NCBI RefSeq assembly: GCF_036046055.1
Contig: NZ_CP107939.1
Location: 7,254,001 to 7,318,000, forward strand
Source: Nocardia sp. NBC_00403
GTDB taxonomy: Bacteria > Actinomycetota > Actinomycetes > Mycobacteriales > Mycobacteriaceae
Direction of reading: 5' to 3'
Length of the DNA: 64,000 nt
Of this stretch, positions 32,315-50,894 are shown one piece after another. The notes under the pieces were generated by a model. That model was given only the letters and a program-made list of their open reading frames with translations. It made no database searches and was not told where the DNA came from. Numbering within the stretch: position 1 is the first letter of the stretch; each line of letters begins with the position of its first letter. The translations under genes were made by a program, and so were the position numbers.

Positions 32315-32610
32315 GTGCAACCCCTCCTCGCACGATCGAAACACCTCGAATCGCCTTTGCTGTCTTCGACGCGCGCGCACCCGATCAGGTTCCCCCTCTT
32401 CGCGACAGGTTTCGGATTGCCGCGACCGGACGGCCACCGCCCCCTCCTCGACACGTCTGGGAAACCTGTTCGTAACTGCGATTTCCCGGCAGAAACCTCT
32501 AGACATCTATCGGACCGTCGATTAATGTGACGTTATATAGCGGCACGATAGACAGTGAGTCGCTAGCCGGGGAATCCCGGGCGATCCAGAGATCGTGAAG
32601 GACGCAAACG
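32315..32610. other. Intergenic region with copy A of a repeated operator
   Basis: Apart from the ribosome site of the small CxxC ORF at the left edge, this stretch of about 300 bases holds no convincing gene. It carries copy A (32524-32549) of the window's 26-bp inverted repeat, 62 bases upstream of the next start. Confidence 0.6.
32524..32549. promoter_or_regulatory. Copy A of repeated 26-bp inverted repeat
   Basis: Arms AATGTGACGTT and AGCGGCACGAT around ATAT. Relative to the family pattern (AAYRTRCCGYT / ARCGGYAYRTT) it has a mismatch in the left arm and one at the outer edge of the right. It lies upstream of the 95-residue secreted protein gene. Confidence 0.6.
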
Positions 32611-32898
32611 ATGACCAGGACCAACCCACAGCGACGGGCCACAAAAACCCTGCTCCGCCTGCTGATCGTGAGCGCGACGGTGGTGACCCCTGCGGTGCTG
32701 ATGCCCGCGCAGGTTCTAGCCCAGCCCGGCCCGGCCGTTTCGACGGTGCGGACCGAATCCCCCAGCCACCACGGACGTGACAAATCGGGACGCGATTCGC
32801 ACCGTCACCGCAGGCGCGACGAGGAGAACAAACGTCGCCAGAACTGCGGAACGCAATTCATTCCCGGCCCGCTCTCCTGCGGCATTTTCACTAACTGA
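32611..32898 (+). CDS. Small secreted basic protein
   Basis: A 95-residue protein with a signal peptide (basic start, helix LLRLLIVSATVVTPAVL, likely cleavage after VLA near residue 37). The mature part is rich in His, Arg and Lys (HHGRDKSGRDSHRHRRRDE) and ends with two Cys (CGTQFIPGPLSC), a probable disulfide loop. AAGGA is upstream of the ATG. First of three small secreted-protein genes in a row; function unknown. Confidence 0.75.
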   Translation: MTRTNPQRRATKTLLRLLIVSATVVTPAVLMPAQVLAQPGPAVSTVRTESPSHHGRDKSGRDSHRHRRRDEENKRRQNCGTQFIPGPLSCGIFTN

Positions 32899-32969
32899 CC
32901 AGCGAAACGCCAGTTAGCACCCAGACCTCACCAGCTTGATTACAGCTCGAAATCGAATGGAGAAATCCA

Positions 32970-33329
32970 ATGACCACCAATATCAACACTCGCCGCCTGC
33001 TGACCTGCGCCGCCATCGTCGGCGCGATCACCACCGCAGGTGCAGGTATGGCATCCGCAGTGCCCGGTGACCATTCCGGTGGCGGGTCGGGCCGTGCCGG
33101 TTCCTACAGCTCCGGCGATTCGACCGGCGCGCATCACATCGACCCCATGGGTTACCACCACGTCGAAAACAATCCGCTGCGGGAGATCGAGCAAGAGGAC
33201 GCCCGCACCGAATACCACCAGCGCCAGAATCAGAACCAAACCGCCAACAACGCCCGCACCTACCAGGTTCAGGGTTCGGAAAACGGTGGCTGGCAGGTCT
33301 GCAAGCCCCAGGCGCGGTACTGCAAATAA
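32970..33329 (+). CDS. Small secreted protein, Gln/Asn-rich
   Basis: A 119-residue protein with a signal peptide (LLTCAAIVGAITTAGAGMASA, read as two pieces; cleavage likely after ASA near residue 30). The mature part has a Gly/Ser-rich start, a His-containing middle, a polar YHQRQNQNQTANN segment and two Cys near the end (VCKPQARYCK). GGAG lies before the ATG. I do not recognise a family. Confidence 0.75.
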   Translation: MTTNINTRRLLTCAAIVGAITTAGAGMASAVPGDHSGGGSGRAGSYSSGDSTGAHHIDPMGYHHVENNPLREIEQEDARTEYHQRQNQNQTANNARTYQVQGSENGGWQVCKPQARYCK

Positions 33330-33417
33330 GCCGATGCCATTGACCGCCGTCACGGAGTCGAACTCCGGCGGCGGTCAATGCTGCGGCCTCGACTATCGAT
33401 ATCTCCACCCACCAGCG

Positions 33418-33443
33418 AACGTGCCGCTACTCAGCGGCACATT
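33418..33443. promoter_or_regulatory. Copy B of repeated 26-bp inverted repeat
   Basis: AACGTGCCGCT-ACTC-AGCGGCACATT, an exact match to the family pattern with perfect inner arms GTGCCGCT / AGCGGCAC (33421-33440). It lies 73 bases upstream of the 183-residue secreted protein gene. Confidence 0.75.
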
Positions 33444-33516
33444 GCATGACGCATGAACTACCCGGATAGCCCGAGCGACGTCGGCTGATGGGACAGACGA
33501 CGAAAGAGAGAAGCCG

Positions 33517-34068
33517 ATGTTCACAAAGAGCGGACATGAGAAGGCCACGCCGATGTGTACCGATCGGGGCCCTTCGAAGGCGAAGACACTAGCCGTGCTC
33601 GCCATCACCGCAGTGACGGCTGGCGGCATCGGTGTCGGCGCGGGAACCGCCGCGGCCGAGCCCGCCGTGCCGTGCCGGTGGGCGGGCGACACCTACCCCC
33701 AGGGCATGTCCGTGAATGCAGGAGGCTGGAGCTTCACCTGCCGATCGGATAACTTCGGCAGCCCCAATTGGGTTCGCGGGCATGCGGTCAACGGGCACAG
33801 CACCGTCCACAACCCCGGCGCGTACACGAACCCTGCCGGTCTGTTCAGCCCGGGCGCACGTCAGCCGGGCACCTCGTACAACGACTATTGCGTCGGCAGT
33901 CAGCTGATCGAAGGCGCCGAGGACGTGTACCAGGTCGTGGCAGACCGAAACGGCTTCGTGTACTGGAAGGCCGCTGAGTCGATCAACATGTGGACCTTCG
34001 ATGGCGGCACCGGCCCACAGCGGTCGACTCGGTCCGCGAGCCTCTGCTATGACGGCAACCTGACCTAG
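33517..34068 (+). CDS. Secreted protein of unknown function
   Basis: A 183-residue protein. A hydrophobic signal segment near residues 23-46 (TLAVLAITAVTAGGIGVGAG) ends in AAAEPAVP, so cleavage near residue 48 is likely. The mature part has four Cys, is rich in Trp/Tyr/Gly and contains YQVVADRNGFVYWK. Upstream are a ribosome site (GAAAGAGAG) and operator copy B. No family recognised. It converges with the NB-ARC gene, separated by 15 bases. Confidence 0.78.
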   Translation: MFTKSGHEKATPMCTDRGPSKAKTLAVLAITAVTAGGIGVGAGTAAAEPAVPCRWAGDTYPQGMSVNAGGWSFTCRSDNFGSPNWVRGHAVNGHSTVHNPGAYTNPAGLFSPGARQPGTSYNDYCVGSQLIEGAEDVYQVVADRNGFVYWKAAESINMWTFDGGTGPQRSTRSASLCYDGNLT

Positions 34069-34083
34069 ACCCCAGAGCCGCGT

Positions 34084-36627
34084 TCAGGGACGTGCCGGGG
34101 ACCTCGCGGGCCGCTGCTCGGATTCGAGCCGGATCCGCTCGCTGAGGTCACCCGGCACGTGCCACATGATGTCCGCGCGGGTGGCCGCCATCAGTTTGCG
34201 ACGGATGGCCACGACCTGGGCATCGACTGTTCGAATGGAACTACCGCGACGTGCGGCGATCGCGCTGTTGGCCCAGCCCGCAGCCGCGAGAACCGCGACG
34301 TCGCGTTCCGCGGGCGAGAGCTCCTGCCAGCGTGAGGCAGGCGCACGCGCCGCGGGGACATCGGTGGGCAGTTCTTCGATGGTGAACCTGCCGAGCATGA
34401 ACCGTTGCAACTCATCGTGTTCCGGCCGCATACGCGCGCCACGGCGGGCGGCCGCCGTGTAATCCGCCGTACCGAGAATCGAGGTCGCCACCGCGACCGC
34501 GTGTTCGGTCCCACGAGCCACCAGCGTCACCCGCTCGGAGGCAATGCCCATCGATCGATGCAAGGTGGCGATACCGCCTTGGAGATAGGCGATTTCGGTC
34601 GCCGCCGCTCGCAGCTCGGCGCGACTGCCGTCCCGCGCGCCGATCCTGGCGGACAAAATGTAGGTCAGCGCCATCATGCTGAAGTGGATGATCCAGCCGG
34701 CAGTCCATCGATCACCCGAGATCAGCAGACGTTCCAGTGCCCCGCGGCCGATTTCCAGCGCAGCGCGCGGATCACCGTGCCGCGAAACCGCGGTCAACCA
34801 CGCCACCTCCCCCCAGGAGATGGCCCATTGGGAATCGCTGGCGATAGCCCGATCGAGATGCTCCCGCGCGGCGCTGAGCGCTAGCTCGGCGTCACCCAGG
34901 TTTGCACAGGACAGCGCGGCGAACAGTTCGCTGCGCTGCACCCCGCCCGCATCGTCGACCTCGGCGAACTTCCTACTCGCCCGGGTCAGTACATCGATGG
35001 CCCGCGGGTCGAGGTGCATGAGCAGCAGCTCTATGCCCCAGGTGAACTCCACCGGGGCAGGCAAGCCGATATCGTCGAGCGCGGTCTCGCGCCAGTTCTG
35101 TTGCAGCGCAGGATCGGATAGGCATTCGACGGCGCACTCGTCCAGCAGTTGCGCGGTATAGGCATGTCGCCCCTGCCAGATTGCCACCCATCCGACCAGC
35201 GCGGTCGCGGTGATCCGCAACTGGGTCGGCGGCGGATCGACCTGTCTGATGGCTTCGAGGGCTTGTTCGGTGATGCCCCCGATGGCGCGGTTGGCACCGG
35301 TGATGAACGGAATGCGCAGCGACATGAGAATGGCGGCGGTCTCCAGTCCGATGACGGCCTCTGTGGGTTCGACGAGACTGGTTTCGATGCCGAGCAGGAT
35401 GTTGCACCACGCGGTACGCGCCCAGTCGAGCCAGTCCTTTTCGTGCGGGCCGTACCACGTGGCCTGGCCCGCGGCGACTTTGTCCCGGTAGTAGCGCCGA
35501 TGGCGGGCAAGCAGCCGTGCTTCGTCCATGCCGTCACCGCGTTGGGACAGTCGGTCCCGCACGAATACCCCGACGCTTTCCAGGAGGTAGTACCGGACCA
35601 TGGTCGGCTCGATGCGGACCGAGACCAACGACCGCTCCGCCAGGCGTTCGAGCAACGACTCGATCTCTTCCGTCGGTAGTGACTTGTCGGCGCAGACCGC
35701 GATGATGGCCTCGGATTCCGCTCCGCTGCCGAGCAGTTCGGCACCGTCACTGTCGCACCCCGTCACGAACACCGACATTCGGTCGAGCAAGAGTTGTTCA
35801 CCCGCGGTGCACAGGCCGTAGGACCAGGCGATCACATCCCGCACACTGCGGTGCCGTTCCTCGGCCCCGAGCCGGGCGGCGTTGGACCAATGCATGCGCC
35901 GGTCGTCGGTATCGCCGGTGAGTTCACGCAGCACAATGATGGGCGGCCGATGCAGCAGGCGAGCCGCCGCCAGCCGGATGAACAGCGGATTGTTGTCCAC
36001 GTGCCAGCAGATCTGCCTGGCGACGGCAAGTTCTTCCGGATTGTCGGAGATCGGCCGGCCGGTCAGCTCCGCACGCCGCCGGAACAGCTCGAGTGCATGA
36101 CCGGACGACATCGGGGGGACTGTCACGATGTGCTCGTCGATCCACCCCACCGGTTCCCGGCTGGTCGCGATGATGGTCAGGCTCGGCACCGCTTCCAGCA
36201 GACCGACGATCAACGGGCCGACCCCCGCGAGCACATGCTCGCAGTTGTCCAGCACCAATATCGTCCGATGGCTGCCCGCGATGTGACCACCGGTGAATGT
36301 CTCCACCAGACCGTCCCAGGCCGACCTTGCGGCAATGTCCGCCGTCACGACCGACTGCACCACTTCTTCGGCCACGACGCCCGCATCGGCGCCTGCCGCC
36401 AGCCGGGACAGCCGCGTCCAATAGACCGTGTGGTTGGGCGTCGGCCGAAATCGCCGCAGCGCTTCGGTCGCCAACGTGGTCTTACCGATTCCACCTGGTC
36501 CGGCCAGGGTGATGAGTCGCGCGGTCGCGGAAGCCAGCAGAGTGCCGATCCGCTGCAACTCGGTGTGCCTGCCGACGAACTCATGCGCCGCGGCGGGAAC
36601 TTCATCGCCGGGTCTCACTGCAGACAT
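34084..36627 (-). CDS. NB-ARC ATPase with C-terminal LuxR-type HTH
   Basis: An 847-residue STAND-type regulator. The N-terminal EFVGRHTELQRI and Walker A GPGGIGKTTLATEA are followed by Walker B ILVLDNCEHVL, a winged-helix/ARC region, a long helical TPR-like middle (about 380-750), and a C-terminal LuxR HTH (LSPAERDVAVLAAAGWANSAIA, split here by family rules, then RTVDAQVVAIRRKL). It should bind ATP and a ligand, then DNA. Two bases of direct repeat flank the gene pair (ATCGATAGG at about 36639 and 36670). Confidence 0.88.
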   Translation of the reverse strand: MSAVRPGDEVPAAAHEFVGRHTELQRIGTLLASATARLITLAGPGGIGKTTLATEALRRFRPTPNHTVYWTRLSRLAAGADAGVVAEEVVQSVVTADIAARSAWDGLVETFTGGHIAGSHRTILVLDNCEHVLAGVGPLIVGLLEAVPSLTIIATSREPVGWIDEHIVTVPPMSSGHALELFRRRAELTGRPISDNPEELAVARQICWHVDNNPLFIRLAAARLLHRPPIIVLRELTGDTDDRRMHWSNAARLGAEERHRSVRDVIAWSYGLCTAGEQLLLDRMSVFVTGCDSDGAELLGSGAESEAIIAVCADKSLPTEEIESLLERLAERSLVSVRIEPTMVRYYLLESVGVFVRDRLSQRGDGMDEARLLARHRRYYRDKVAAGQATWYGPHEKDWLDWARTAWCNILLGIETSLVEPTEAVIGLETAAILMSLRIPFITGANRAIGGITEQALEAIRQVDPPPTQLRITATALVGWVAIWQGRHAYTAQLLDECAVECLSDPALQQNWRETALDDIGLPAPVEFTWGIELLLMHLDPRAIDVLTRASRKFAEVDDAGGVQRSELFAALSCANLGDAELALSAAREHLDRAIASDSQWAISWGEVAWLTAVSRHGDPRAALEIGRGALERLLISGDRWTAGWIIHFSMMALTYILSARIGARDGSRAELRAAATEIAYLQGGIATLHRSMGIASERVTLVARGTEHAVAVATSILGTADYTAAARRGARMRPEHDELQRFMLGRFTIEELPTDVPAARAPASRWQELSPAERDVAVLAAAGWANSAIAARRGSSIRTVDAQVVAIRRKLMAATRADIMWHVPGDLSERIRLESEQRPARSPARP

Positions 36628-36669
36628 CCTTGCTCACCTATCGATTTCGAGGCCACATGTAGCAGTAGC

Positions 36670-38136: not shown

Positions 38137-38194
38137 AGGACGAAAGTTAGCCGAATCAACGCGAACGCGCTGGAAATTTCAGGTTACCGGGGTG

Positions 38195-38785
38195 CTACGC
38201 CGACCGACATATCGCTGGATGAGCAGGCTGCTGGTAGTGCATCTGCACGACGGCACTGTCGAAGGTCATCACATCGACCAGCTGCAGATCCGCCATCGCA
38301 GTAGGCGCCGGGAACAGTGGCACACCGCCACCCAGGACGAGCGGGTGGACGAACAGCCGGTACTCATCGATCAGTTCGTGCCGCATGAAGGCCGAAGCCG
38401 TCTCGGCACCGCCGAACAGAACCATGTTGCAGTCCTGCTGGTCTCGCAGTGCGCAGATCTCGTCGACCATGCCGTCGCGCACGACTCGCGTGTTCCAGCC
38501 CGCGCTGCGCAGGCTGCGCGAGATGACGAGCTTCGGCGTCTGTTTCCAGCAGCGCGCGAAGTCGACATAGAACTCGGATATCGCCGGATCTCCGTCGGCC
38601 GTCGGCCAGAACGATGCCATGATCTCGTACGTCTTGCGTCCGTAGATGAACAGATCGGCCGCGCGAAGCTCATCGAGAAACGATTCGCACAACTCCTCGT
38701 CCACCATCGGCCAGTGGATCTCCTGATCCGGCCCCTCCGCAAAGCCGTCGAGCGACATCTGCATCCACAGTGTCACGCTTCCCAT
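38195..38785 (-). CDS. Dihydrofolate reductase / RibD C-terminal family protein (second copy)
   Basis: About 196 residues with MSLDGFAEGPDQEIHW, FIYGRKTYEIMASFW, MVLFGGAETASAFM and LFVHPLVLGGGVPLF, the DHFR-like reductase pattern. The substrate is unknown. The ATG at 38785 is preferred over an in-frame TTG at 38791. A 30-bp imperfect palindrome (38861-38890) lies 75 bases upstream and suggests dedicated repression. Confidence 0.82.
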   Translation of the reverse strand: MGSVTLWMQMSLDGFAEGPDQEIHWPMVDEELCESFLDELRAADLFIYGRKTYEIMASFWPTADGDPAISEFYVDFARCWKQTPKLVISRSLRSAGWNTRVVRDGMVDEICALRDQQDCNMVLFGGAETASAFMRHELIDEYRLFVHPLVLGGGVPLFPAPTAMADLQLVDVMTFDSAVVQMHYQQPAHPAICRSA

Positions 38786-38860
38786 ACCCAACCCATCTGC
38801 TGCCCTCGTGCCGAAGTCAGATTGTGGTGGGGAATGAGGGCAGCGCGCATCGGTAGATTA

Positions 38861-38890
38861 ACTCACGACATACCTAAGTAGGTCGTGAGT
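38861..38890. promoter_or_regulatory. 30-bp imperfect palindrome upstream of dhfr-like gene
   Basis: ACTCACGAC, then a centre with TACCTAAGTA, then GTCGTGAGT; only two mismatched position pairs. A third half-site (CACGACCT) lies at about 38897-38904. The size fits a MerR-, GntR- or TetR-type operator. Confidence 0.6.
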
Positions 38891-39065
38891 GATCACACGA
38901 CCTGGCGCGCTGGATGGCCGCCGACCTGCTCGGTCGGCCCATCAGGGCGTGGCACAGAACCTCGAGGGCAATGAGGGTTCGGGGGGTTTCGCGTAGCCGA
39001 ATAGCATTCCGGCCCAGCGATTCTCGCTCCGCGGACGGCTCCGATGCCGTCGCTGCCTGCCAGCA

Positions 39066-39091
39066 AACATACCGCTGTTTAACGGCACGTT
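39066..39091. promoter_or_regulatory. Copy C of repeated 26-bp inverted repeat
   Basis: AACATACCGCT-GTTT-AACGGCACGTT, an exact match to the family pattern. The flank resembles copy B (both have CCAGC just before the AA). It lies in the gap between the dhfr-like start and the merR end. Confidence 0.7.
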
Positions 39092-39149
39092 ACGTGTCAG
39101 TATCTTCAGCCGTGGGAATAGTGGACATCGAAGGGGCATTTTCGACCGG

Positions 39150-39896
39150 TCAGGCCCGCGACAGCGCGTCAGAGATTTCGGCGTCCTGGTCGAGATGCCG
39201 TGCTACGAACAGAGTCACGAGCTCCGCCGTCGCCTCGCCGGACATGCTCTTGGTCGCGGCAAGGCGTTCAGCGAGCTCGGCCACGTCGGCCGAATCCTTT
39301 TCGGACTGCTGGAACTTCGCAAAGGTCGTGCGACGGAACAGGTCGACGAAACGTCGGGCGATACGGTCGGTATCGGCCCGCAGCTTCTCGAGTTCGTCCA
39401 GCACCTCGGCGGCGGGAACACCCGCCGCGCTGAGCTTCTCGACGATCCGAACCAGTCTGCGGTCGGCCAACCGGTAGTTTTCGGCGTCCACAGGCTCATA
39501 GAGGCCCACTGTGACCACGCGGGCGAGTCCGTTGGGCACCTCGTGGTAGCGCGCGGCGAGCTCCGTCGCGGCGATGGTTTCACCCGACTCCGGAAGCTCC
39601 TCGGCAACCTCCGCCTTCGCCGTGTCGGGTTCGATGACGCCGAGGATGTCACCCAGGTCGTCACCACGGTCCCAGGCGTCGAGCAATTCCCTGATGCCGT
39701 TGAGTTTGATCCCGCGATCCAGCAGCCGGCTGATCGTCCGGACACGATTGAGATGCTCTGGTCCATAGAACCCGGTTCGCCCTTTGACCTGGGGCGGGGG
39801 CAGGACACCACGCTCGTGGTAGACCCGCAGACTCCGCACGGTCGTGCCGGCCTCGCGCGCCAGCTCGTCGATCGTGTATTCAACAGCGGCAGCCAT
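39150..39896 (-). CDS. MerR-family transcriptional regulator
   Basis: A 248-residue regulator. The N-terminal HTH and wing (YTIDELAREAGTTVRSLRVY, then HERGVLPPPQVKGRTGFYG) are typical of MerR proteins, and a helical dimer and effector region follows. The long C-terminal domain is not a known drug-binding type I can name. A candidate promoter for it on the minus strand is TTGCTG at 39980-39985 with TATGTA at 39958-39963 (16-bp spacing). It diverges from the DUF1707 gene. Confidence 0.88.
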   Translation of the reverse strand: MAAAVEYTIDELAREAGTTVRSLRVYHERGVLPPPQVKGRTGFYGPEHLNRVRTISRLLDRGIKLNGIRELLDAWDRGDDLGDILGVIEPDTAKAEVAEELPESGETIAATELAARYHEVPNGLARVVTVGLYEPVDAENYRLADRRLVRIVEKLSAAGVPAAEVLDELEKLRADTDRIARRFVDLFRRTTFAKFQQSEKDSADVAELAERLAATKSMSGEATAELVTLFVARHLDQDAEISDALSRA

Positions 39897-40064
39897 GGTT
39901 CAAGGAAACCACACCGAGTCCGCATCGACGGCCGCCACACGGGCCGTTGTGGCCGCTTACATAGCCGCCAGCGACGAATCAGCAAACGCTAATTCGGTCA
40001 CAGTCTTCCCGTCCATGGAAAACGACGCCTGTGCAACATTTCCACCTGCGCATATCCTTCCGGA

Positions 40065-40433
40065 ATGGACGACTCTGCGGGCTCTAGGGTCAGTGTCGAG
40101 GACCGTGAACGCGCGCTCTTGGAACTGTCACACCATCTCGGCTCGGGCAGGCTGGACCTTGCCGAGTTCGACGAACGCAGCGCAGCGGTGACTGCGGCCA
40201 CCACCAAAACTCAGCTCGCCGAACTGTTCGCCGACCTCCCCGGTAACCTGCCGTCCGCCGCGCCGCTCCCGGAGCCGAACCCGATGCGCACGCTCGTCGT
40301 GACCGTCGCGGCGATCGCCGTCCTCGCCCTGGCCGCCGCCCTCGTCACCGGCACCTGGTGGCCGCTGCTCGTGACGTTCGGTGCGCCCGCGGCGCTAGCG
40401 CTCGCCGTCCGAACAGGCGCGTTGCGGCCTTAG
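40065..40433 (+). CDS. DUF1707 membrane protein
   Basis: A 122-residue protein. The N-terminal SVEDRERALLELSHHLGSGR-LDLAEFDERSAAVTAA segment is the DUF1707 signature, and two transmembrane helices follow (about 75-95 and 98-115). DUF1707 proteins are common in actinobacteria and are of unknown function. Its stop overlaps the end of pknG by four bases in convergent orientation. Confidence 0.88.
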   Translation: MDDSAGSRVSVEDRERALLELSHHLGSGRLDLAEFDERSAAVTAATTKTQLAELFADLPGNLPSAAPLPEPNPMRTLVVTVAAIAVLALAAALVTGTWWPLLVTFGAPAALALAVRTGALRP

Positions 40434-42874
40434 AAGCGGGTCTGCGGCCGGACGTGGTTGGCCAGGTCGACGAGCCGGTACCGATGCAGGCGGTGTGGTG
40501 CGATACGCGCCAATGCTCGCAGGCTCGTTTCCAGTCCGCCCTGCAGTCCCAGCTCGGTAACCGGGAAGCCGAGAATTATCGAATGAGGCCCGGCCGGTTG
40601 CCCGCCTGCACGTAGCCACTCCAGTGCCGCCCCCACGACGATCACCTGTAACTGCAGGGCCCGAGGCTCATCCGGCGCCGCGTCCAGGCGGGTTGCCGCC
40701 TCGGTGAGGTCGGCCTCGGTGATGTCGGCGACCGGCCGCGACACCAGCAGCAGACAACCGGTCATGCGCGCGACACTGTGATAGCGCGAGGCCTCCGGTA
40801 CCTGATCGAGGACCGCAACGGCTTCGAGCAGCGCGCCGTCGGCCGCAAGCCTGCGAGCCAGGCCGAATGCCGCACTGACCATTCCGTGGTTGGTCTTCCA
40901 GACCGTCGCGTAATAGTCCGACGCGAGCCGGTGCCAGCGCTTGGCCTCGGCGGGTGTATCCAGGTGTTGCAGTGCGAGTTCCGCGGTGGCGGCAAGGGCG
41001 AGGGCGGGTGCGAGCTCACCGGGCAGCATGCTGTGCACAAGGTCGAAGTACTCGAAGGCGCGCGCATGCTGGCCATCCAGCAGCGCGGCGGCCGCGGTGT
41101 ACCAGTCGAGGCGCCAGTCGGCGGCGTAGCGCGGGCGCAGGTCGGCGAGCCGATCGCCGGCCAGCCGCACATCGCCGAGGTCGAGGTGGGCGCGGATCGC
41201 GGTCAGTGTGCCCTCGAGCTCGAACGACTCCGGTTCCGGGATCGTCCCGGACACGATGCGGTCGGCCGCACGGCGCAGCGCGTCCAGCGCCTGTCTCGGA
41301 TCGCCGTGCAACAGCGTGGACAGTAGCTCGGCGCTCGGGTCCTCGTTGTCCATCAGCGGAACAGGCAGCGCGGCAACGACACTCGGCGCATCGAGGGCAG
41401 GCAGTCGGTGCCTGCCGTCGGTCATGCCGTCGGTCTGGCCGATGAGCGTTTCGATGCCGAAATCGCCACGCATGGAGCCGAATTCGATCGAGGCCTGCGG
41501 ATGTTCGAGGCCGGTCTCCGCCGCGAGCACCATCCGCAGCACGCCGGCGAGCTGACTGTACATCGAATAGGCAGAAGGAAAACGACGCTGCGGATCCAGG
41601 TCGGTGGCGCGTTGCAACACCCGGTACAGAGCCGGGTTTCGGCGCAGCAGCGGCTGATCCTCCGGGGCCGGCAGGCCGGGCAGGTAATGACCTTCTTTGT
41701 CCTTGGGCAGTTCGAGGATCAGCGCGGCCAGCGTTCGCCCGACGGTGTAGATGTCGGAGGCGACGGTGGGGCCGGTGTCGGTGATCTCGGGCGCTTGGTA
41801 TCCGGGAGTTCCGTAGATGCTCCCGTAGGACTCCATCGCGGCGACCGCGCCGAGGTCGATCAGTTTGACCTCGTCCTCGCTGACCATGATGTTGTCGGGT
41901 TTGAGGTCGTTGTAGGCCAGCCCGAACGAGTGCAGATAGTCGAGCGCGGGCAGGATCTCCATCATGAAGGCGATGGCATCCGGCACCGAAATGCGTTCCG
42001 GGGCACGCAGATCGAGCATTTTCTTCAGTGATCGGCCACCGACGTATTCCATGACGATGTAGCCGTCGGCGACGTCACGCGTCGACCGGTGCTTGACGAA
42101 GTTGTGGATCTTGACGATGCCGGGATAGGCCACCTCGGACAGGAATTGACGTTCGGCAAGGGCGACGACATGCGCCTCGAAGTCGAGCGGGTTCTGCAGG
42201 CCCTTCAGCACCACCCATCGATCGCTAACATTGCGGTCGATGGCGAGGTAGATCCAGCCGAGTCCACCGTGTGCGAGGCTGCCCTGCACTTCGTACTGGC
42301 CCGCCACCATCTCCCCCGGCTGCAGCGCCGGTCGGAAGTTGAAGGGCGATCCGCAGCGGTCGCATTCGCCCACCACGGCGCCCGGTCCGGCCTCGGTGGA
42401 TCGGCCGACCGGCTGTTGACACTTCCAGCAGAACCTTTTGTGCTCGGGCACTTCCGGACGCTCGAGCACCGAGGTCCGTGGATCGAGCGGGCTCACCTGC
42501 GGCATCGCGACCAGCCCGTCGCCGAGCCGTCGGACGCTCGGCCGTGATCGGGCGCTGCGGCCCGAAGCGGGCTCGTCGAGCGCGGCCAGCAAGGCGCGCT
42601 CGGAATCGGTTGTGCGCTCGGCACCGGTCGTGCGGAGCGAAGTCGACCCTGCCGAAACGGTGGCGGGGGCAGTGGCATTCGAGGTCGCGCCGGGCACCGG
42701 GCGGTTCGAAGGCTTCGACCAGGGGTGCGGCAAACGTGCAGGCACCTCGGTTTTGGAGGGTCGCCGAGATGCCCATGGGTGCGGCATCCGCCGTGGCACT
42801 TCAGTGCCACGCATACGCCGATTCGCCCATGGGTGCGGTATCGGACGGTCGGAGGCGTTAGGGTGCTCCGGCAT
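40430..42874 (-). CDS. pknG: PknG-type serine/threonine kinase
   Basis: An 814-residue soluble kinase. The N-terminus has three PHPW repeats (residues 14-17, 31-34, 50-53), then a candidate phospho-site TTDSE (88-92). A rubredoxin-like zinc centre follows with Cys149, Cys152, Cys171 and Cys174, then the kinase domain (Lys224 in VVLKGLQ; catalytic YNDLKPDNIM) and a TPR tail. In mycobacteria PknG senses amino acids and phosphorylates GarA, which controls glutamate dehydrogenase; here gdh and ansP lie within 8 kb. The mycobacterial glnX/glnH partners are absent. Confidence 0.93.
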   Translation of the reverse strand: MPEHPNASDRPIPHPWANRRMRGTEVPRRMPHPWASRRPSKTEVPARLPHPWSKPSNRPVPGATSNATAPATVSAGSTSLRTTGAERTTDSERALLAALDEPASGRSARSRPSVRRLGDGLVAMPQVSPLDPRTSVLERPEVPEHKRFCWKCQQPVGRSTEAGPGAVVGECDRCGSPFNFRPALQPGEMVAGQYEVQGSLAHGGLGWIYLAIDRNVSDRWVVLKGLQNPLDFEAHVVALAERQFLSEVAYPGIVKIHNFVKHRSTRDVADGYIVMEYVGGRSLKKMLDLRAPERISVPDAIAFMMEILPALDYLHSFGLAYNDLKPDNIMVSEDEVKLIDLGAVAAMESYGSIYGTPGYQAPEITDTGPTVASDIYTVGRTLAALILELPKDKEGHYLPGLPAPEDQPLLRRNPALYRVLQRATDLDPQRRFPSAYSMYSQLAGVLRMVLAAETGLEHPQASIEFGSMRGDFGIETLIGQTDGMTDGRHRLPALDAPSVVAALPVPLMDNEDPSAELLSTLLHGDPRQALDALRRAADRIVSGTIPEPESFELEGTLTAIRAHLDLGDVRLAGDRLADLRPRYAADWRLDWYTAAAALLDGQHARAFEYFDLVHSMLPGELAPALALAATAELALQHLDTPAEAKRWHRLASDYYATVWKTNHGMVSAAFGLARRLAADGALLEAVAVLDQVPEASRYHSVARMTGCLLLVSRPVADITEADLTEAATRLDAAPDEPRALQLQVIVVGAALEWLRAGGQPAGPHSIILGFPVTELGLQGGLETSLRALARIAPHRLHRYRLVDLANHVRPQTRF

Positions 42875-42967: not shown

Positions 42968-42996
42968 TCCGCCCCGGGCGTGTCGCCCGGGGCGGA
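42968..42996 (-). terminator. ansP terminator
   Basis: A 13-bp GC-rich stem (TCCGCCCCGGGCG at 42968-42980 with 42984-42996, loop TGT) lies 8 bases after the ansP stop on the minus strand. It would also separate ansP from pknG transcription. Confidence 0.8.
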
Positions 42997-43003
42997 TACT
43001 GAC

Positions 43004-44542
43004 TCACTCTTCGTCGTCTGGCTTTTCGAGAACTACCACTGCGTCGTTGGCCGAACGGGTGGCAGGCCGCTCCGCGAGCACCGGGAACTGACCGGTGTAA
43101 CCCTCCCGGATCGCTGCGATGCGCAATACCTGCTTCCGGGCGAGGAACCAGCCGCCGACCATCGCGGGCACCACGATGACGGCCATGGCGATCACCGCGC
43201 CACGCTGCAACTCGTCGTCACTGAAGGCCATCAGCACGACCACCGTCACGAGGAACACCAGCGTCGCGTAGCTGGTGTAGGGCGCACCCATCAGTCGGAA
43301 CTTGGGCCGCTCCAGCTTGCCCTCGTTCGCCCAGCGGTACAGCTTGAGCTGGCAGACGATGATCGCCGTCCATGCCACGATCGTTCCGAGCGCCGACATG
43401 TTCAACACGATCTCGAACGCCTTCTCGGGCACCACCGCGTTGAGACCGACACCGAACAGTGCGATCGCACCGGTCGCCAGGATGCCGACATAGGGCACAC
43501 CGCCACTGGACATCCGCGAGGCGATGGCAGGCGCACTACCGTTCATCGACATCGACCGCAGGATCCGGCCGGTCGAATACAAACCGGCGTTCAAGCTCGA
43601 GAACGCCGCGGTCAGCACGACCATATTCATGACCGAACCCGCGCCGTCGACACCGATCCGCGAGAAGAAGGTGACAAACGGGCTCTCACCGGACTTGAAA
43701 GCGGTGTAGGGCAGCAGCAGCCCGAGCAGCACCAGCGAACCGACGTAGAACAGCGCGATGCGTGCGATGACGGAGTTGATCGCCCGCGGCATGATCTTCT
43801 CCGGGTTCTCCGCCTCACCGGCCGCCGTGCCGACCAATTCGACCGCGGCGTAGGCGAATACGACACCCGTGGTGACGAGAACCAGCGGCAGGATGCCACT
43901 CGGGAACAGTCCACCGTTCTCGGAGATCACGCTGAAGCCGGTGGGCTGATCCTGAATCTTGAACCGGCCGCCGAGGAAGATGGTGCCGACGATCAGGAAG
44001 GTCACCAGTGCGACGACCTTGATCATCGCCGCCCAGAACTCCAGCTCACCGAACCACTTGACCGACACCATATTGATGCTGACCACCAACGCCAGCGCGA
44101 CCAGTGCGATCAGCCACTGCGGAATCGCCTCGAAAGCTCCCCAGAAGTGGACATACGTGGCGATGGCCGTGATGTCTACGATCCCGGTCATACACCAGTG
44201 GAAGAAGTACATCCACCCGACGGCGAAAGCCAGCTTCTCACCATAGAACTCACGGGCGTAGGAGACGAACGACCCCGAGGAGGGGCGATGCAGCACCAAC
44301 TCACCGAGCGCGCGCAGGATGAAGAACACGAACACGCCACAGACGGCGTACACCAGAAACAGCCCGGGCCCTGCGTGGGCCAGCCTGCCTCCCGCGCCGA
44401 GGAACAGACCGGTGCCGATGGCGCCACCGATCGCAATCATCTGCAGCTGACGTGGGCGAAGAGACTTGTGATACCCCGCGTCCTCGTCGTGGAGCGAGTC
44501 GGCCGGTGCGGCCTGCTCCGAGGGAGGTCGAACTGTGGTCAT
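43004..44542 (-). CDS. ansP: L-asparagine permease (APC family)
   Basis: A 512-residue, roughly 12-helix amino-acid permease. The N-terminal [20 protein letters not shown] and the segments [19 protein letters not shown] and [15 protein letters not shown] closely follow the AnsP proteins of mycobacteria as I recall them. It probably imports asparagine or a related amino acid by proton symport. AAAGG before ATG. Copy D of the repeated operator is centred about 54 bases upstream, so it may share control with gdh. Confidence 0.88.
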
Positions 44543-44582
44543 GGTGACGGCCTTTCAAGTGACGGCGATCATATCTGCGATC

Positions 44583-44608
44583 AATGTACCGTTAAGTAGC
44601 GGCACGTT
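44583..44608. promoter_or_regulatory. Copy D of repeated 26-bp inverted repeat (ansP side)
   Basis: AATGTACCGTT-AAGT-AGCGGCACGTT, an exact family match, 41 bases upstream of the ansP start in the ansP-SPFH divergent gap. Confidence 0.78.
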
Positions 44609-44699
44609 CAATAGCGGGCACCCGATGTAACACGATGGCAATCAGGAACATTCAGGGGTCATGGCCGTTAAGCAGGGAAAATCGCCATCGGCATGATTG

Positions 44700-44725
44700 A
44701 GCGAGCCGCTATATATCGGTACGCT
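44700..44725. promoter_or_regulatory. Copy E of repeated 26-bp inverted repeat (SPFH side)
   Basis: GAGCCGCT-ATAT-ATCGGTAC core at 44703-44722, a degenerate match with two deviations in the inner arms. It lies 28 bases upstream of the SPFH gene start and 117 bases from copy D. Confidence 0.55.
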
Positions 44726-44752
44726 CTGTAGGAAAATCGGCTAGGAGCGGAC

Positions 44753-45838
44753 ATGGCGTGGTTCGAAAGGGAGTTCATTGCGGTCCCCGAGGACCGCAAG
44801 AACCAATTGGTCTACAAGTGGCCGGATCTCAACATCCGCCGCTACAGCCGGGTGATCGTCAACGCGGATGAGATGGCTCTGTTCGTCAAGTCCGGACAGG
44901 TCGTCACCGCCATGGGGCCCGGCCGCCACCGCGTCGACGCGGATGAGCTGCCGGTACTCGGCTCTCTCATCGATAGGGCCACCGGCGGAAACTTCTATCG
45001 CGCCGAGCTGTATTTCGTGTCCACCCGGGAGGCCTCCGGCATCAAGTTCGGTGGACGGCTGGCCGACATCTTCGACCCGGTCAGCGAGCAGGTGGTGACC
45101 CTGCGCGCCTTCGGCGAGTTCGCGCTTTCGGTGCGTGATCCCCGCGAAATGCTCACCGCGCTGACCGGCACCGCCGATCTCACGGATCCGACCAGAGTGC
45201 AGAGCTGGAGTGGCGACCTGCTGCTCAAGTCCATGAAGGTTGCTGTCACCCAGGGCATTTCAGCAGGCAACTGGCAGGTGCTCGGGTTGTCGGCGCAGCT
45301 GCAGCCGATCGAGTCCGCCGTGATGAAGCAGACCAATATCGCGCTCTACGAGTACGGTCTGCGGATTCCGAGGATGGGCAATTTCGACATCTCTCTCGAT
45401 CCGGAAGACGCCGAACGCATCAAGCGACTCGCCAAAGACGTCAAGTACATTCAGCTGGCCGGCGACTTCCAGCGTTATGCCGCAGGTGAACTCGCACTCG
45501 GTGCGAGCCAAGGATTCGCGCACGGTGGACACGGCGGTCACGGCATGGACGGCGGATTCCTCGGCGCCGCACTGGGTTTAGGCGCCATCCAGCAGCAGAC
45601 GGGCGGTCACTCGAGTCCATGGCAGCGGCCGCCATCCCCCGCCGAGTTGCCTGCCGCCGACGCGCAGCCGGTGTGCGCCCACTGCCACACCACCAATCCG
45701 GTGGGTGCTCACTTCTGCACGAACTGCGGCAAACCTTTGGCGCCGCCCGCACCGCGGCATTGCGCCAACTGCGGCGCGGAAACCGCGCCCGCGGCAAAGT
45801 TCTGCGGCAGCTGCGGAACGCAAGTGTCCGGAGGCTGA
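44753..45838 (+). CDS. SPFH / virion-core-type protein with double zinc ribbon
   Basis: A 361-residue protein. The N-terminal 240 residues form an SPFH-like domain of the YdjI/virion-core group (VIVNADEMALFVKSGQVV, GNFYRAELYFVS, IKFGGRLADIF). A Gly/His linker (AHGGHGGHGMDGGFLG) follows, then two zinc ribbons, CAHC...CTNCG and CANCG...CGSCG, at about 303-357. Related proteins act at the membrane under envelope stress. GGAG before ATG; operator copy E just upstream. Function here is inference. Confidence 0.8.
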   Translation: MAWFEREFIAVPEDRKNQLVYKWPDLNIRRYSRVIVNADEMALFVKSGQVVTAMGPGRHRVDADELPVLGSLIDRATGGNFYRAELYFVSTREASGIKFGGRLADIFDPVSEQVVTLRAFGEFALSVRDPREMLTALTGTADLTDPTRVQSWSGDLLLKSMKVAVTQGISAGNWQVLGLSAQLQPIESAVMKQTNIALYEYGLRIPRMGNFDISLDPEDAERIKRLAKDVKYIQLAGDFQRYAAGELALGASQGFAHGGHGGHGMDGGFLGAALGLGAIQQQTGGHSSPWQRPPSPAELPAADAQPVCAHCHTTNPVGAHFCTNCGKPLAPPAPRHCANCGAETAPAAKFCGSCGTQVSGG

Positions 45839-45864
45839 CGCTTTCGCGTCGAACCTCCGGACAC
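45824..45864. terminator. Bidirectional terminator between SPFH gene and gdh
   Basis: GTGTCCGGAGG (45824-45834) pairs with CCTCCGGACAC (45854-45864), with a smaller GACGC/GCGTC hairpin nested inside. It covers the SPFH stop codon and lies 12 bases from the gdh stop. Confidence 0.75.
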
Positions 45865-45875
45865 CCGCGGTCGAA

Positions 45876-48800
45876 TCAGCCGATGACGGTCGGCGCGACC
45901 GCGGTGGTCTCGCCACCGCTCACCATGCTGCGCACTTGCCGCGCCGCCACCGACAGCGTCGCAAGGTCGTAGCTGCCGACGTCGAAGATCTGCCCGAGCG
46001 ACGCACTGGCCCTTGCCAGGCGAGACCGGTTGGTGGATTCCCAGTAGGCGATCTTCTCCGCGGCACTCTCATCCGGTTCGGTGGCGCTCAAGACATCCAG
46101 CGTCAGTGACCGCAGCGAATCGTACAGATCGTCGCGGACTGCGAGCCGAGCCAGTGTGCGCCACCGGTCGCCGCGTTCGAGGTTGCCGACGGCGGTCAGC
46201 AGCCGTTCGATCTCGAAGTGCTCGTTGAGCGCGGCGTGCAGCACCCCAACCTCCACCGGGTCACGCTCGGTGATGTCGGCGATGTCGATCACATCGAGCA
46301 GCGGGAACAGGTGGATGAGCCCGAACGCCTCCTCCGCCAGGTCCTGCGGTGCGCCGCGTTCGACCGTGCCGTGCGAGCGCGCGATCAGATCGTCGGCGAG
46401 GTAACCGGTCAGCCAGGCAGGCGCCTTACTGGTGAGGGCGCGGACACCGTCACAGTAGCGGGCGATATCGGCGCCGATCGCGATCGGCTGCGGCCGGTTG
46501 GCCAGCAGCCACCGGGAGGCCCGGTCCAGGGTGCGCTTGGTCTCGAGCTCGAGCTCGTTGCGCACTGCGGTGGCCATCGGAGTGGTCCGGATCCGCTGCC
46601 ACAGCGCGTGCAGATCGAAGATCTCGACCGCAGCGGTGAAGGCGCGCACCGCATCATCGGTTGTCGCACCCGCCTCCTCGGCGAGGCGGAAGGCGTAGGT
46701 GATGCCGCCGTAGTCGACCACATCGTTGATCACCACGGTCGCCACGATCTCCCGACGCAGCGGATGGCGGCGGATGGCGGCGGCGAACCGCTCGCGCAGC
46801 GGTGACGGGAAATAGTTCGGCAGCACCGAGGCGAACGCCGGACTGTCGGGCAGGTCGCCTGCGAGCAGATCGGCCTTCAGCGAAAGCTTCACGTGCGCCA
46901 TGAGATTCGCCAATTCGGGCGAGGTCAGCCCGCGACCCTCCGCAGCGCGTTGCTCCAATTCCACATCGGTCGGCAGCGCTTCGAGCCTGCGATCCAGACC
47001 GCGGCGCGCTTCGAGATCGGCGAGCAACCGCCGGTGCACACCCGACATGGCCACCGCGTCGGCGCGCGACATGCCCATGCGGAAGTTCTGCGAGATATTG
47101 TCGCGCAGAACCAGTTCGGAGACCTCGTCGGTCATGGAGGCGAGCAGCGGATTGCGCTCGGCGACGGCGAGCTCACCGCTGGAGACGACCGCGTCCAGCA
47201 GCACCTTGATGTTGACCTCGTGGTCGGAGCAGTCCACACCCGCCGAGTTGTCCATCGCGTCGGTGTTCATCCTGCCGCCGCCGCGGCTGTACTCGATGCG
47301 GCCGAGTGCGGTCGCGCCGAGGTTACCGCCCTCTCCGATCACCTTGACCCGCAGCGCATTCGCGTTGACGCGGACCGCGTCGTTGGACTTGTCACCCACC
47401 TCGGCATCGGCCTCGGAGGACGCCTTGATGTAGGTGCCGATACCGCCGTTCCACAGCAGATCGACCGGTGCGAGCAGAATGGCCTTGATGATCTCCGGCG
47501 GCGACAGCTTGGTCACTTCGGGCCCGAGGCCGAGCGCCGCGCGCACCTCCGGGGACACCGGCACCGCCTTTGCCGACCGGTCGTAGACGCCGCCGCCCTT
47601 ACTGATCAGCGACCCGTCGTAGTCGGCCCACGAGGAACGTGGCAGCGCGAACATGCGTTGCCGCTCCAGGAACGACCGGGCCGCATCGGGATTCGGGTCC
47701 AGGAAGATGTGCCGGTGGTCGAACGCCGCGACCAGGCGGATGTGCTTGGAGAGCAGCATGCCGTTGCCGAACACGTCGCCGCTCATATCGCCGACGCCGA
47801 CGACGGTGAACTCCTGGGTCTGGGTATCGACGTTCAGCTCGGCGAAGTGGCGCTTCACGCTCTCCCACGCGCCCTTGGCGGTGATGCCCATCGCCTTGTG
47901 GTCGTAACCCGCCGAGCCACCGGAGGCGAAGGCGTCGCCCAGCCAGAAACCGTATTGCTGGGCAACACCATTGGCGATGTCGGAGAACGTCGCGGTGCCC
48001 TTGTCCGCGGCGACCACCAGATAGGTGTCGTCGCCGTCGCGACGCACCACCCGGGCGGGCGGCAGCACAGCGCCGGTGGTGTGCTCGACATTGTCGGTGA
48101 CGTCGAGCAGGCCGGAGATGAAGGTGCGATAGCAGGACACGCCCTCGGTGAGCATTGCCTGCCGATCCACGCCGGGATCCCCGGTGGCAGTAGGCGGCTG
48201 CTTGACCACGAAACCGCCCTTGGCGCCGACCGGGACAATGACGGCGTTCTTCACCGCCTGCGCCTTCACCAGACCGAGGATCTCGGTGCGGAAATCTTCC
48301 AGACGGTCCGACCAGCGCAACCCACCGCGCGCCACCGCGCCGAAGCGCAAGTGCACGCCCTCGACCCGTGGCGAGTACACGAAGATCTCGAATTGTGGCC
48401 TCGGCTTGGGCAATTCGGCGATGACGTGGGGATTCAGCTTGAAGGACAGATACTCCAGCGGATTGCCCGCGCCATCACGCCGGTAGTAGTTGGTGCGCAG
48501 CGTCGCCTTGATCAGCCCCAGCACAGCGCGCAGAATCCGGTCGGTGTCCAGGCTGACGACCGCGTCGATCTCGGCCTGCACCCGTTCCGCAATACCCTCG
48601 GCGAGGACCTCGGCCTCTGGCCCGGTGCCCTCGGGATCGAAGTAGGCGCCGAACAATTCGGTGCAGGAGCGCGCGGTGGCCGGATGGGTCAGCAGCACCC
48701 GCGTGATGTTGCCGAGGGTGTAGGCGAAACCGGCCTGCTGCAGGTACTTCGCGTAGGCCCGCAGCATCGCGATCTGACGCCAGTGCAGCCCGGCGCGCAG

Positions 48801-50855
48801 CACCAGCTCGTTGAGTCCGTCGACTTCGGCCTTGCCGAACCACATGGCGGCGACGGCTTCCGGAAAGCGCTTGCGCACACTGGTTTCCGGCAGTGACTCG
48901 ATATCGGCGGTGGCGGCGAGATCAGCCTCGATGTCGGCGTCGAGCGAACCGCGCAGCAGCGCGGCGGGCACCCGCAGCCCGAAGTCGTAGATCCAGCGCT
49001 GCGCGCCGTCCCACAGGGTGATGCGGTAGGGCTGCTCGTCGACGACTTCCACGCCGAGACTGTGCACGACCGGAAGCACCCGGCTCAGGGACACGCCCTC
49101 GCCCGCGACGTAGAGCGTGAAACGCCACTCCCCCGACGGCGATTCGGGATTCCGGTAGAGATTGGTGTCGATGTCGCCGTCGCTCAGCCGCTCGAGCCGC
49201 CGCACATCCGCGAGCGCGCGGGCAGGCTGGTATTCCTGCTGGTAGCTCGCCGGGAACGCGGACGCGTAATCCTGTGCGACAGTGGGTGATATGTCTGCCA
49301 CCCCGGCAGCCTCCGCCACCAAGCGATCGGCCCAAGTCCGGGTCGTCGCGAACAACAGCTCCTGCACGCGCTCGCGATTGGTATCGGAGATGTCGGCCGG
49401 TTCCGCGTCGGGCTTGCGATGCACCGTGAAGTACACGACGGCCAGTTCCGATTCGGTGGCGCGGGCCGAGTAGGCCAGCTGCTCGGCGTCGAACTCCGCC
49501 CGCAGCAGCTCACCCATTTGCACCCGAACCTCGGTCGAGTAGCGATCGCGCGGCATGTAGACCAGGCAGTAGACCGTGCCGCTGCGGTTGTCGCGGCGCA
49601 GGAACAGCCGGACCTGCCGCCGCACGCCGAGATTCATGACGCCGGAGACCGTTTCGAACAGCCTGCGCGCGTCGGTGGAGAACAGCTCGACCCGGGGGAA
49701 GGATTGCATCATCTCGAGCATTGCCTGGCCGGAGAAGGAGTTCAGCGCGAAGCCGGACCACTCGATGACCTGGAGCACGCGCCGCGAGATGACGGGGATG
49801 TCGAGGATGTTCTCGTGCAGGCCCGTCACGGTGAACGTGCCGACGAAGACGTGCTCGCCCTTCACCATGGCGACGGTGGCTCCAGCGGGTCCGGCGCTGG
49901 TCGCGTCACCGGTGCCGTAGTCGGCGACGCTGATGTAGTAGAGGTCGCGCGAACCGGGCAGCAGGGAATCCACCGAGCCGTTGGCAAGGCGCAGCACCGG
50001 CCGCTTCGCACCCAGCACAGGGGCGCTGACGTCGGCGACCGATCCGTTGTGCAGCACGCCGAGGCCGGTTCCGGGAATCTGCCACGGCTCCATGGGCGCG
50101 TCGGGGCGCGGGGCGGAACGGCGGAATCGGTAGTAGCCGTAGCCGAGCGCGGTGAAGTGGCCGTCGGCCATCCAACGCAAAAGATCTGCGGCCTCCGGGA
50201 TTTCGGGATCGCCCGCCCATTGCGCGGCATTCTCGAGCCCGTCGGCCACCGTGTTCATCGCCCCAACGATGGTCGGCGTATCGTCCGCGACGCGACGCAG
50301 ATCGTTCAGCAGCGGCTCGAGCGCCTGCTCGATCCGGTTGACCTGTTCGTCGGTGAGGCCGTGACCGAACTGCACATGGATCCACGATTCCGCGACGGCC
50401 GCGGGCCCCGGGTCCGCCTCGCCGTCGCGAGCCACGATGGTCAGCAGCTTGCCCTCGGCATCGCGGGTCACATCGAAGACCGGATGGATGACTTCGGTGA
50501 CCGTGGCACCGAGCCGACGCAATGCGGCGGTGACCGAATCGACCAGCAGCGGCATATCGTCATTGACGATTTGGACCGCGGCACCGAGCTCACTGCTGTC
50601 GTCGGGGCGGTACACCTTGGTCGTCGCCGATCCGGGAGTTCGGACCGCCGCCAGCTCCAGATGCTGCCGGAAGATCCGCTCGGCCCGATCGGTGATCGCC
50701 GACGCCGATGCCCCCGGTTGGATCCAGCGGAAGTAGGCTGCCTCCAGATCGGTCGGATCGTTGCGGAACCGCCCCGAAGTTATCGTCTGCTGCGTGGTTG
50801 CCACCATCGAACCGCTGCCTTCCCGAGAACTGACCTCGTAACGTACGGTTTCCAT
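45876..50855 (-). CDS. gdh: NAD-dependent glutamate dehydrogenase, large (180-kDa class)
   Basis: A 1659-residue enzyme of the bacterial 180-kDa class. It oxidises glutamate to 2-oxoglutarate and ammonia. The long N-terminal regulatory part contains ACT-like and PAS-like regions (IQIVNDDMPLLVDSVTAAL); the catalytic core has AKGGFVVKQPP, GGLRWSDRLEDFRTEILGLV and GVGDMSGDVFGNGMLLS; a helical C-terminal domain follows. In mycobacteria the orthologue is inhibited by GarA, a PknG target. Copy F of the repeated operator ends 14 bases before the ATG, and a second imperfect palindrome (50838-50862) covers the start codon. Confidence 0.95.
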   Translation of the reverse strand: METVRYEVSSREGSGSMVATTQQTITSGRFRNDPTDLEAAYFRWIQPGASASAITDRAERIFRQHLELAAVRTPGSATTKVYRPDDSSELGAAVQIVNDDMPLLVDSVTAALRRLGATVTEVIHPVFDVTRDAEGKLLTIVARDGEADPGPAAVAESWIHVQFGHGLTDEQVNRIEQALEPLLNDLRRVADDTPTIVGAMNTVADGLENAAQWAGDPEIPEAADLLRWMADGHFTALGYGYYRFRRSAPRPDAPMEPWQIPGTGLGVLHNGSVADVSAPVLGAKRPVLRLANGSVDSLLPGSRDLYYISVADYGTGDATSAGPAGATVAMVKGEHVFVGTFTVTGLHENILDIPVISRRVLQVIEWSGFALNSFSGQAMLEMMQSFPRVELFSTDARRLFETVSGVMNLGVRRQVRLFLRRDNRSGTVYCLVYMPRDRYSTEVRVQMGELLRAEFDAEQLAYSARATESELAVVYFTVHRKPDAEPADISDTNRERVQELLFATTRTWADRLVAEAAGVADISPTVAQDYASAFPASYQQEYQPARALADVRRLERLSDGDIDTNLYRNPESPSGEWRFTLYVAGEGVSLSRVLPVVHSLGVEVVDEQPYRITLWDGAQRWIYDFGLRVPAALLRGSLDADIEADLAATADIESLPETSVRKRFPEAVAAMWFGKAEVDGLNELVLRAGLHWRQIAMLRAYAKYLQQAGFAYTLGNITRVLLTHPATARSCTELFGAYFDPEGTGPEAEVLAEGIAERVQAEIDAVVSLDTDRILRAVLGLIKATLRTNYYRRDGAGNPLEYLSFKLNPHVIAELPKPRPQFEIFVYSPRVEGVHLRFGAVARGGLRWSDRLEDFRTEILGLVKAQAVKNAVIVPVGAKGGFVVKQPPTATGDPGVDRQAMLTEGVSCYRTFISGLLDVTDNVEHTTGAVLPPARVVRRDGDDTYLVVAADKGTATFSDIANGVAQQYGFWLGDAFASGGSAGYDHKAMGITAKGAWESVKRHFAELNVDTQTQEFTVVGVGDMSGDVFGNGMLLSKHIRLVAAFDHRHIFLDPNPDAARSFLERQRMFALPRSSWADYDGSLISKGGGVYDRSAKAVPVSPEVRAALGLGPEVTKLSPPEIIKAILLAPVDLLWNGGIGTYIKASSEADAEVGDKSNDAVRVNANALRVKVIGEGGNLGATALGRIEYSRGGGRMNTDAMDNSAGVDCSDHEVNIKVLLDAVVSSGELAVAERNPLLASMTDEVSELVLRDNISQNFRMGMSRADAVAMSGVHRRLLADLEARRGLDRRLEALPTDVELEQRAAEGRGLTSPELANLMAHVKLSLKADLLAGDLPDSPAFASVLPNYFPSPLRERFAAAIRRHPLRREIVATVVINDVVDYGGITYAFRLAEEAGATTDDAVRAFTAAVEIFDLHALWQRIRTTPMATAVRNELELETKRTLDRASRWLLANRPQPIAIGADIARYCDGVRALTSKAPAWLTGYLADDLIARSHGTVERGAPQDLAEEAFGLIHLFPLLDVIDIADITERDPVEVGVLHAALNEHFEIERLLTAVGNLERGDRWRTLARLAVRDDLYDSLRSLTLDVLSATEPDESAAEKIAYWESTNRSRLARASASLGQIFDVGSYDLATLSVAARQVRSMVSGGETTAVAPTVIG

Positions 50856-50862
50856 ACGTTAC
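50838..50862. promoter_or_regulatory. Palindrome over the gdh start codon
   Basis: GTAACGTACGG (50838-50848) and CCATACGTTAC (50852-50862) are inverted with one mismatch. They span codons 1-3 and the ribosome site, so the element could act as an operator or an mRNA hairpin. Confidence 0.5.
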
Positions 50863-50868
50863 CTGAAT

Positions 50869-50894
50869 AACGTACCGTTGTATAGCGGTACATT
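50869..50894. promoter_or_regulatory. Copy F of repeated 26-bp inverted repeat (gdh promoter)
   Basis: AACGTACCGTT-GTAT-AGCGGTACATT, an exact family match, 14 bases upstream of the gdh ATG. At this distance binding would block RNA polymerase or the ribosome site. Confidence 0.78.

Follow-up and report, generated by a model that had tools for sequence, protein, structure and literature searches.

GlnR and TnrA of Bacillus are MerR-family repressors of nitrogen metabolism, a type of target that we also propose below for a MerR-family protein of Nocardia; their operator differs from the Nocardia palindrome. The classical regulators MerR, CueR, CadR and SoxR resemble the Nocardia system in their N-terminal winged helix and, at the best Nocardia sites, in a palindrome located between the (in Nocardia inferred) -35 and -10 elements, but their promoter spacers measure 19-20 bp, versus 17 bp at the Nocardia sites D, E and F, and they serve one operon, versus about 10 sites per genome here (at two mismatches or fewer). 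FtsR (Rv1828) is described as a MerR-family activator of ftsZ recognizing a 25-bp imperfect inverted repeat that starts with AAC, located between the -35 and -10 elements of the ftsZ promoter in M. tuberculosis and at -61 to -85 in C. glutamicum (PMC6683498). Searches of an open-access collection, from which most subscription journals are absent, gave no description of the Nocardia operator or of the MerR regulator.

The window analysed here is a stretch of 64,000 nucleotides corresponding to positions 7254001-7318000 of the 8.73-Mb, one-contig genome of Nocardia sp. NBC_00403 (G000; other genomes and examined loci carry our G and L numbers). It encodes a MerR-family protein whose N-terminal winged-helix domain scores 73.8 bits against PF13411 (cut-off 21.6; Table 1). 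The AlphaFold model of this protein associates the winged-helix part with long helices (mean pLDDT 84, pTM 0.52), and its best Foldseek matches are MerR-family structures; given this pTM and an unsure linker, only the N-terminal fold match was used. The latter includes the GlnR/TnrA structures 4r22, 4r4e and 7tea (TMt 0.75-0.80 over about 70-76 columns), the C-terminal part being longer in the Nocardia protein. A likeness to FtsR/Rv1828 is indicated by the best NCBIfam match, NF050798 (E 2.6e-10), with a score of 40.8 bits that falls far below the cut-off of 150. According to gene calls and Pfam, the gene is not located beside odhI/garA; the operator core also differs from the Nocardia sites, and the putative Nocardia targets are genes for amino-acid use and secreted proteins. 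Considering the score and the missing odhI/garA neighbour, we classify the protein as a MerR/FtsR-type regulator, not as FtsR. Its closest database proteins are from Nocardia and up to 97% identical (best 120 of 424 matches), and all five named loci that encode a related protein belong to Nocardia.

A preliminary description of the window had reported six copies (A to F) of a 26-bp inverted repeat and proposed that they form one local regulon with no obviously linked regulator gene. All six copies are present at the reported positions. The inner 20-mer RTRCCGYTNNNNARCGGYAY has exact matches starting at 33421 (B), 39069 (C), 44586 (D) and 50872 (F), whereas sites A and E, already called degenerate, differ from it by one and two mismatches and are nonetheless conserved. 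Such an accumulation is far beyond chance: the window contains four exact 20-mers, whereas 100 shuffles that preserve dinucleotides gave none (mean 0.00), and 23 matches with up to three mismatches versus a shuffle mean of 7.98. Our gene calls place 6/6 sites between genes, as had been stated. A second palindrome, GTAACGTACGGTTTCCATACGTTAC, is present at 50840-50865 between the start of the GDH-A gene and site F, and loci L053 and L068 have similar letters at this place.

Table 1. Putative operators, candidate regulator and neighbouring genes (window coordinates)
Feature	Position	Strand	Evidence and remarks
Site A, degenerate operator (putative)	32524..32549	+	1 mismatch to 20-mer; 61 bp upstream of 95-aa secreted-protein ORF
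95-aa protein, putative target of A	32611..32898	+	ORF; signal-peptide-like start (by eye)
Site B, putative operator	33418..33443	+	exact 20-mer; 73-77 bp upstream of c11 gene
c11, 183-aa secreted protein, putative target of B	33517..34068	+	no family in Pfam or NCBIfam
RibD C-terminal-domain protein, possible target of C	38195..38785	-	PF01872 E 2.8e-20; 280 bp from site C; start codon uncertain
Site C, putative operator	39066..39091	-	exact 20-mer; between MerR gene and RibD-like gene
MerR-family regulator, candidate binder of all sites	39150..39896	-	PF13411 E 1.2e-20; 3' end 58 bp from site C
PknG protein kinase gene of conserved cluster	40430..42874	-	PF16918, PF00069, PF16919
Amino-acid permease, asparagine-permease type, putative target of D	43004..44542	-	PF00324
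Site D, putative operator	44583-44608; with -35 44583..44611	-	-35 TTGAAC 44606-44611, -10 TACATT 44583-44588, facing permease; 0 mismatches to combined pattern
Site E, degenerate operator (putative)	44697..44725	+	-35 TTGAGC, -10 TACGCT; 27 bp upstream of SPFH gene
SPFH/Band-7 protein, zinc-ribbon end, putative target of E	44753..45838	+	PF13421, PF13240
GDH-A, large NAD-glutamate dehydrogenase, accessory copy (putative), putative target of F	45876..50807	-	PF05088 and related; start 50807
Site F, putative operator	50869-50894; with -35 50869..50897	-	-35 TTGAAT 50892-50897, -10 TACGTT 50869-50874; 61 bp upstream of GDH-A; 0 mismatches to combined pattern

The whole genome contains seven exact 20-mers and none of the reversed pattern used as control. 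Only four of the seven are inside the window, the others being located megabases away, and relatives have up to 13 copies of the 26-mer at two mismatches or fewer (10 in the present genome); the term local therefore holds only in part, whereas genus-wide conservation and promoter position (see below) support a single-operator regulon well. The distant sites precede a second permease gene and a gene for a 118-aa Tyr/Pro-rich secreted protein; the exact copy at 5912809, inside a called gene, is probably due to chance. With two mismatches the genome yields 166 matches versus 123 for the control, so that loose matches are mostly noise. A variant site, TTGAACGTACCGTCACATGACGGTAC, is found at G000:C1:7324662-7324687, about 6.7 kb beyond the end of the window.

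At least one exact 20-mer is present in 49 of 59 Nocardia genomes (194 in total), the reversed pattern occurring zero or one time per genome. Across species, the centre and the Y/R positions vary and the fixed positions are constant. G047 has a 26-mer identical to site A, and varied forms of it occur in G026, G039, G042 and G023. Of the 11 regions upstream of SPFH genes, 9 retain the frame of site E (TTGA-17 bp-TACGYT) and the other two have only TACGCT (hand count). Another 26-mer, AATGTGCCATTTGTCAATGGCACATT, is common to G026:C402:21364 and G043:C1:2690873, perhaps as an operator of a related MerR protein. Among 200 genomes of the order, 17 from other genera have one or two exact 20-mers each (in G090, one copy twice), which we read as chance matches since many have G+C-rich centres.

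The neighbourhoods were studied for part of the 194 exact sites, with genes called in the relatives by a codon-usage heuristic that leaves their starts uncertain. Of the 73 exact sites in the examined loci, 66 are located between genes, against a called coding share of 81% for this DNA (binomial p 1e-39, for loci picked because they contain sites). The distance and promoter counts given below concern 59 sites, after exclusion of those inside called genes or with no neighbour of suitable orientation at 350 bp or less, and orthologous sites among them are non-independent. The preliminary description had suggested scanning this and related genomes for hits upstream of orthologous genes, and the sites indeed recur there, often at a near-constant distance: 43-44 bp from the permease start in 8/12 sites (44 bp in the window, with the conserved start 44542), 68-69 bp from c11 in 6/7 loci (compare the window distance in Table 1), 80-85 bp from c12, a glycine-rich secreted protein, in 6/6, 56-67 bp from GDH-A in 6/12 and 76-78 bp from an Rv3651-like gene in 2/3.

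These positions suggest that the regulon covers amino-acid use and small secreted proteins. The best NCBIfam match of the permease is the L-asparagine permease (625 bits, below the cut-off of 773). A large GDH is present in 59/59 genomes. In G000, a second large NAD-dependent enzyme, at C1:2928768-2933633, is 65% identical to GDH-A and has no exact site, and no exact 20-mer was detected in the approximately 200 bp upstream of the assigned GDH-B copy in 58/58 loci (some of which end at contig ends). Since every genome has a large GDH and GDH-B is without exact site, GDH-A looks like an accessory copy. In many of the relatives that were mapped, the genes for MerR, PknG, permease, SPFH and GDH-A are clustered together, MerR having as neighbours PknG, a DUF1707-type gene, the RibD-like gene and the permease; a HTH_3 gene at 52816-53169 (PF01381, E 5.2e-06) belongs to the GDH-A cluster of relatives. 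Small secreted proteins rich in Gly or Tyr, which end with PGTGSAF, PTGSAY or similar, are the products of many genes that have a site (L060, L064, L071, L077, L078, L081, L082, L091, L095, L099, L108); we know of no family for them. Asparagine synthase was rejected as a target: in L050, L055 and L101 the site follows the 3' end of this gene, and the gene that it precedes encodes about 110 aa.

At the best sites the palindrome likely fills the 17-bp spacer between the -35 and -10 elements of a promoter. Read towards the gene, D corresponds to TTGAAC-17-TACATT, F to TTGAAT-17-TACGTT and E to TTGAGC-17-TACGCT; at site C, TTGA is absent at the -35 position. A TTGA-17-TANNNT frame, a putative promoter by its letters, is present on one side in 34/59 sites, TTGA being absent in 25/59. 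Among the 41 sites with a gene in one direction only, TTGA plus TANNNT at 17-bp spacing faces the gene 14 times and points away twice, and TANNNT alone at the -10 position gives 30 towards the gene versus 18 away; against such a promoter frame, 25 of these 41 sites have TTGA on neither side, including 9/12 GDH-A sites and 7/7 c11 sites (site B among them). In divergent regions, the frame occurs on exactly one side in 18/18 sites, 11 of them facing the permease.

Such palindromic, conserved sites in several copies could also be a repetitive element, a hairpin or a terminator instead of an operator. Hundreds of random or in-gene copies, the outcome that would have spoken for such an element, were looked for, and only seven exact copies were found in 8.7 Mb, at conserved distances to gene starts. 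The two arms are complementary at the two variable positions in only 17/59 sites, an asymmetry that tracks promoter direction and argues that the palindrome is not maintained as a hairpin. With the intergenic bias (66/73) and this lack of complementarity, we consider that a repeat element or hairpin is ruled out for practical purposes, its probability being close to nil.

The preliminary description had found no regulator gene linked to the sites; the MerR-family gene adjoins site C, and its presence matches that of the sites in 59 Nocardia genomes. The position of site C, between MerR and the next gene, is the same in relatives. The MerR gene was found in 45 of the 59 genomes (E up to 1e-30), and 45/45 of these contain the 26-mer at two mismatches or fewer (1-13 each, 315 in total versus 40 for the control). 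Conversely, 12 of the 14 genomes without MerR have no 26-mer at this threshold, the two hits in total (control 8) being in G028 and G053, one each (Fisher p 8e-11, kinship ignored). On a GDH-B tree, the distribution of MerR needs seven changes, five of them forced by well-supported branches; of the five independent pairs, on average 3.2 have sites that changed in the direction of MerR and 1.8 have sites that do not differ, none having changed in the opposite direction; these are too few pairs for significance. These tree counts refer to exact 20-mers, including those inside genes, with rows G013, G018 and G021 misread and G004 absent; of the first MerR alignment, two rows had been taken from the wrong strand, and the second alignment omits them. 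Other genes of the cluster follow the distribution of MerR in large part, a point against the MerR reading.

Exact 20-mers occur in four MerR-less genomes (G020, G021, G027 and G028), in each of which the one examined locus has its copy inside a called gene; G027, with two exact 20-mers, gives no 26-mer at two mismatches or fewer. In G041, G048 and G058, the sole intergenic exact site is located between the divergent MerR and permease genes (G048 has a second exact match inside a called gene). Against MerR as the binder, no site at three mismatches or fewer was detected in 14 of 48 MerR loci within the 2.7-4.9 kb examined.

From the computed conservation, position and co-occurrence of the sites, we infer, with a probability of roughly 0.7, that they are operators of the MerR-family protein, which would probably repress the genes for the permease, GDH-A, SPFH and the small secreted proteins. 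A MerR dimer would bind the 26-bp palindrome AAYRTRCCGYTNNNNARCGGYAYRTT, thereby occupying the 17-bp promoter spacer and overlapping the -35 and -10 elements, and would most likely repress transcription until a signal releases it. From the nature of the targets, this signal is perhaps an amino acid or a related nitrogen metabolite. The set of targets would comprise the permease (D), SPFH (E), GDH-A (F) and secreted proteins (A and B), together with a small number of distant genes and possibly the RibD-like protein (C).

The MerR protein could instead bind the same sites and activate, as its nearest named relative does at ftsZ: the FtsR report describes activation of ftsZ in C. glutamicum, and gives 19-20 bp for the spacer in MerR-type activation by twisting, versus the inferred 17 bp here (PMC6683498). 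Since the Nocardia spacer already has the standard length of 17 bp, we favour repression over classical MerR activation and regard an activator as rather unlikely.

A different regulator with the same distribution could also bind the sites, namely a MerR paralogue, the HTH_3 gene that is part of the GDH-A cluster in relatives, or an unlinked factor. The paralogue (G000, 7357323-7358003) is 48% identical to the MerR protein and is located beside ROK and Rv3651-like genes; a site adjoins it in several genomes, including N. transvalensis, but not at L143 of N. wallacei (threshold two mismatches), and it might bind the same sites. However, G041, G043 and G058 have a single MerR match (E up to 1e-30) and still contain sites, and in L072, L073 and L075 the only genes beside the site are those for MerR, the permease and PknG plus a WXG100-like and a familyless gene, neither of which has a DNA-binding family. 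We consider such another binder improbable.

The AAA-ATPase/LuxR pair encoded at 34084-38136 (847 and 488 aa) belongs to the same cluster, and its presence correlates with the sites (Fisher p 0.009). As the binder it is nevertheless very improbable: the 847-aa LuxR protein was not found in 11 genomes that have MerR and sites (threshold E 1e-60, with 16 candidates per genome scored) and is found in two MerR-less genomes with zero and one site hits, a genome distribution on which we rejected these LuxR/IniR-like neighbours as the regulator. The pair shows weak similarity to the IniR and AbsR2 models, and many Nocardia genomes have more than one member of this family.

Three MerR-permease regions of N. 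wallacei/N. mexicana contain only a drifted palindrome, with five mismatches at best, in which a CCATC-GATGG-like core replaces CCGYT-ARCGG, both arms being changed. Each of these regions has two drifted palindromes next to each other, with a CCAT-ATGG-like core, at about 9758-9803 in L139 and in L140, and at about 1840-1885 in L141. We counted the drifted sites against the MerR protein as the binder, yet their unchanged place and the change in both arms speak for it, and they can also be read as co-evolution of regulator and operator. It is tempting to suppose, as a tentative idea that we hold possible rather than probable, that a branch of MerR/FtsR-type regulators was recruited genus-wide in Nocardia, coupling amino-acid import and glutamate breakdown via GDH-A (in a cluster with the PknG kinase gene) to small secreted proteins, with the operator core recoded from CCGYT to CCATC in both arms. 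If this is true, the recoded core would offer a natural system for studying regulator-operator co-evolution.

Nocardia are soil bacteria and opportunistic pathogens in which, to our knowledge, little is known about transcriptional regulation. Beyond the preliminary description, the present analysis proposes a candidate regulator, a genus-wide scope and a promoter mechanism. In Mycobacterium, the PknG-GarA-GDH axis is a post-translational control; the genomic comparisons reported here suggest that in Nocardia a second GDH and a permease, encoded beside a PknG gene, are likely also under transcriptional control. The list of putative targets also gives a first functional context for small secreted proteins without known family, and the regulon, if true, would span much of the genus Nocardia.
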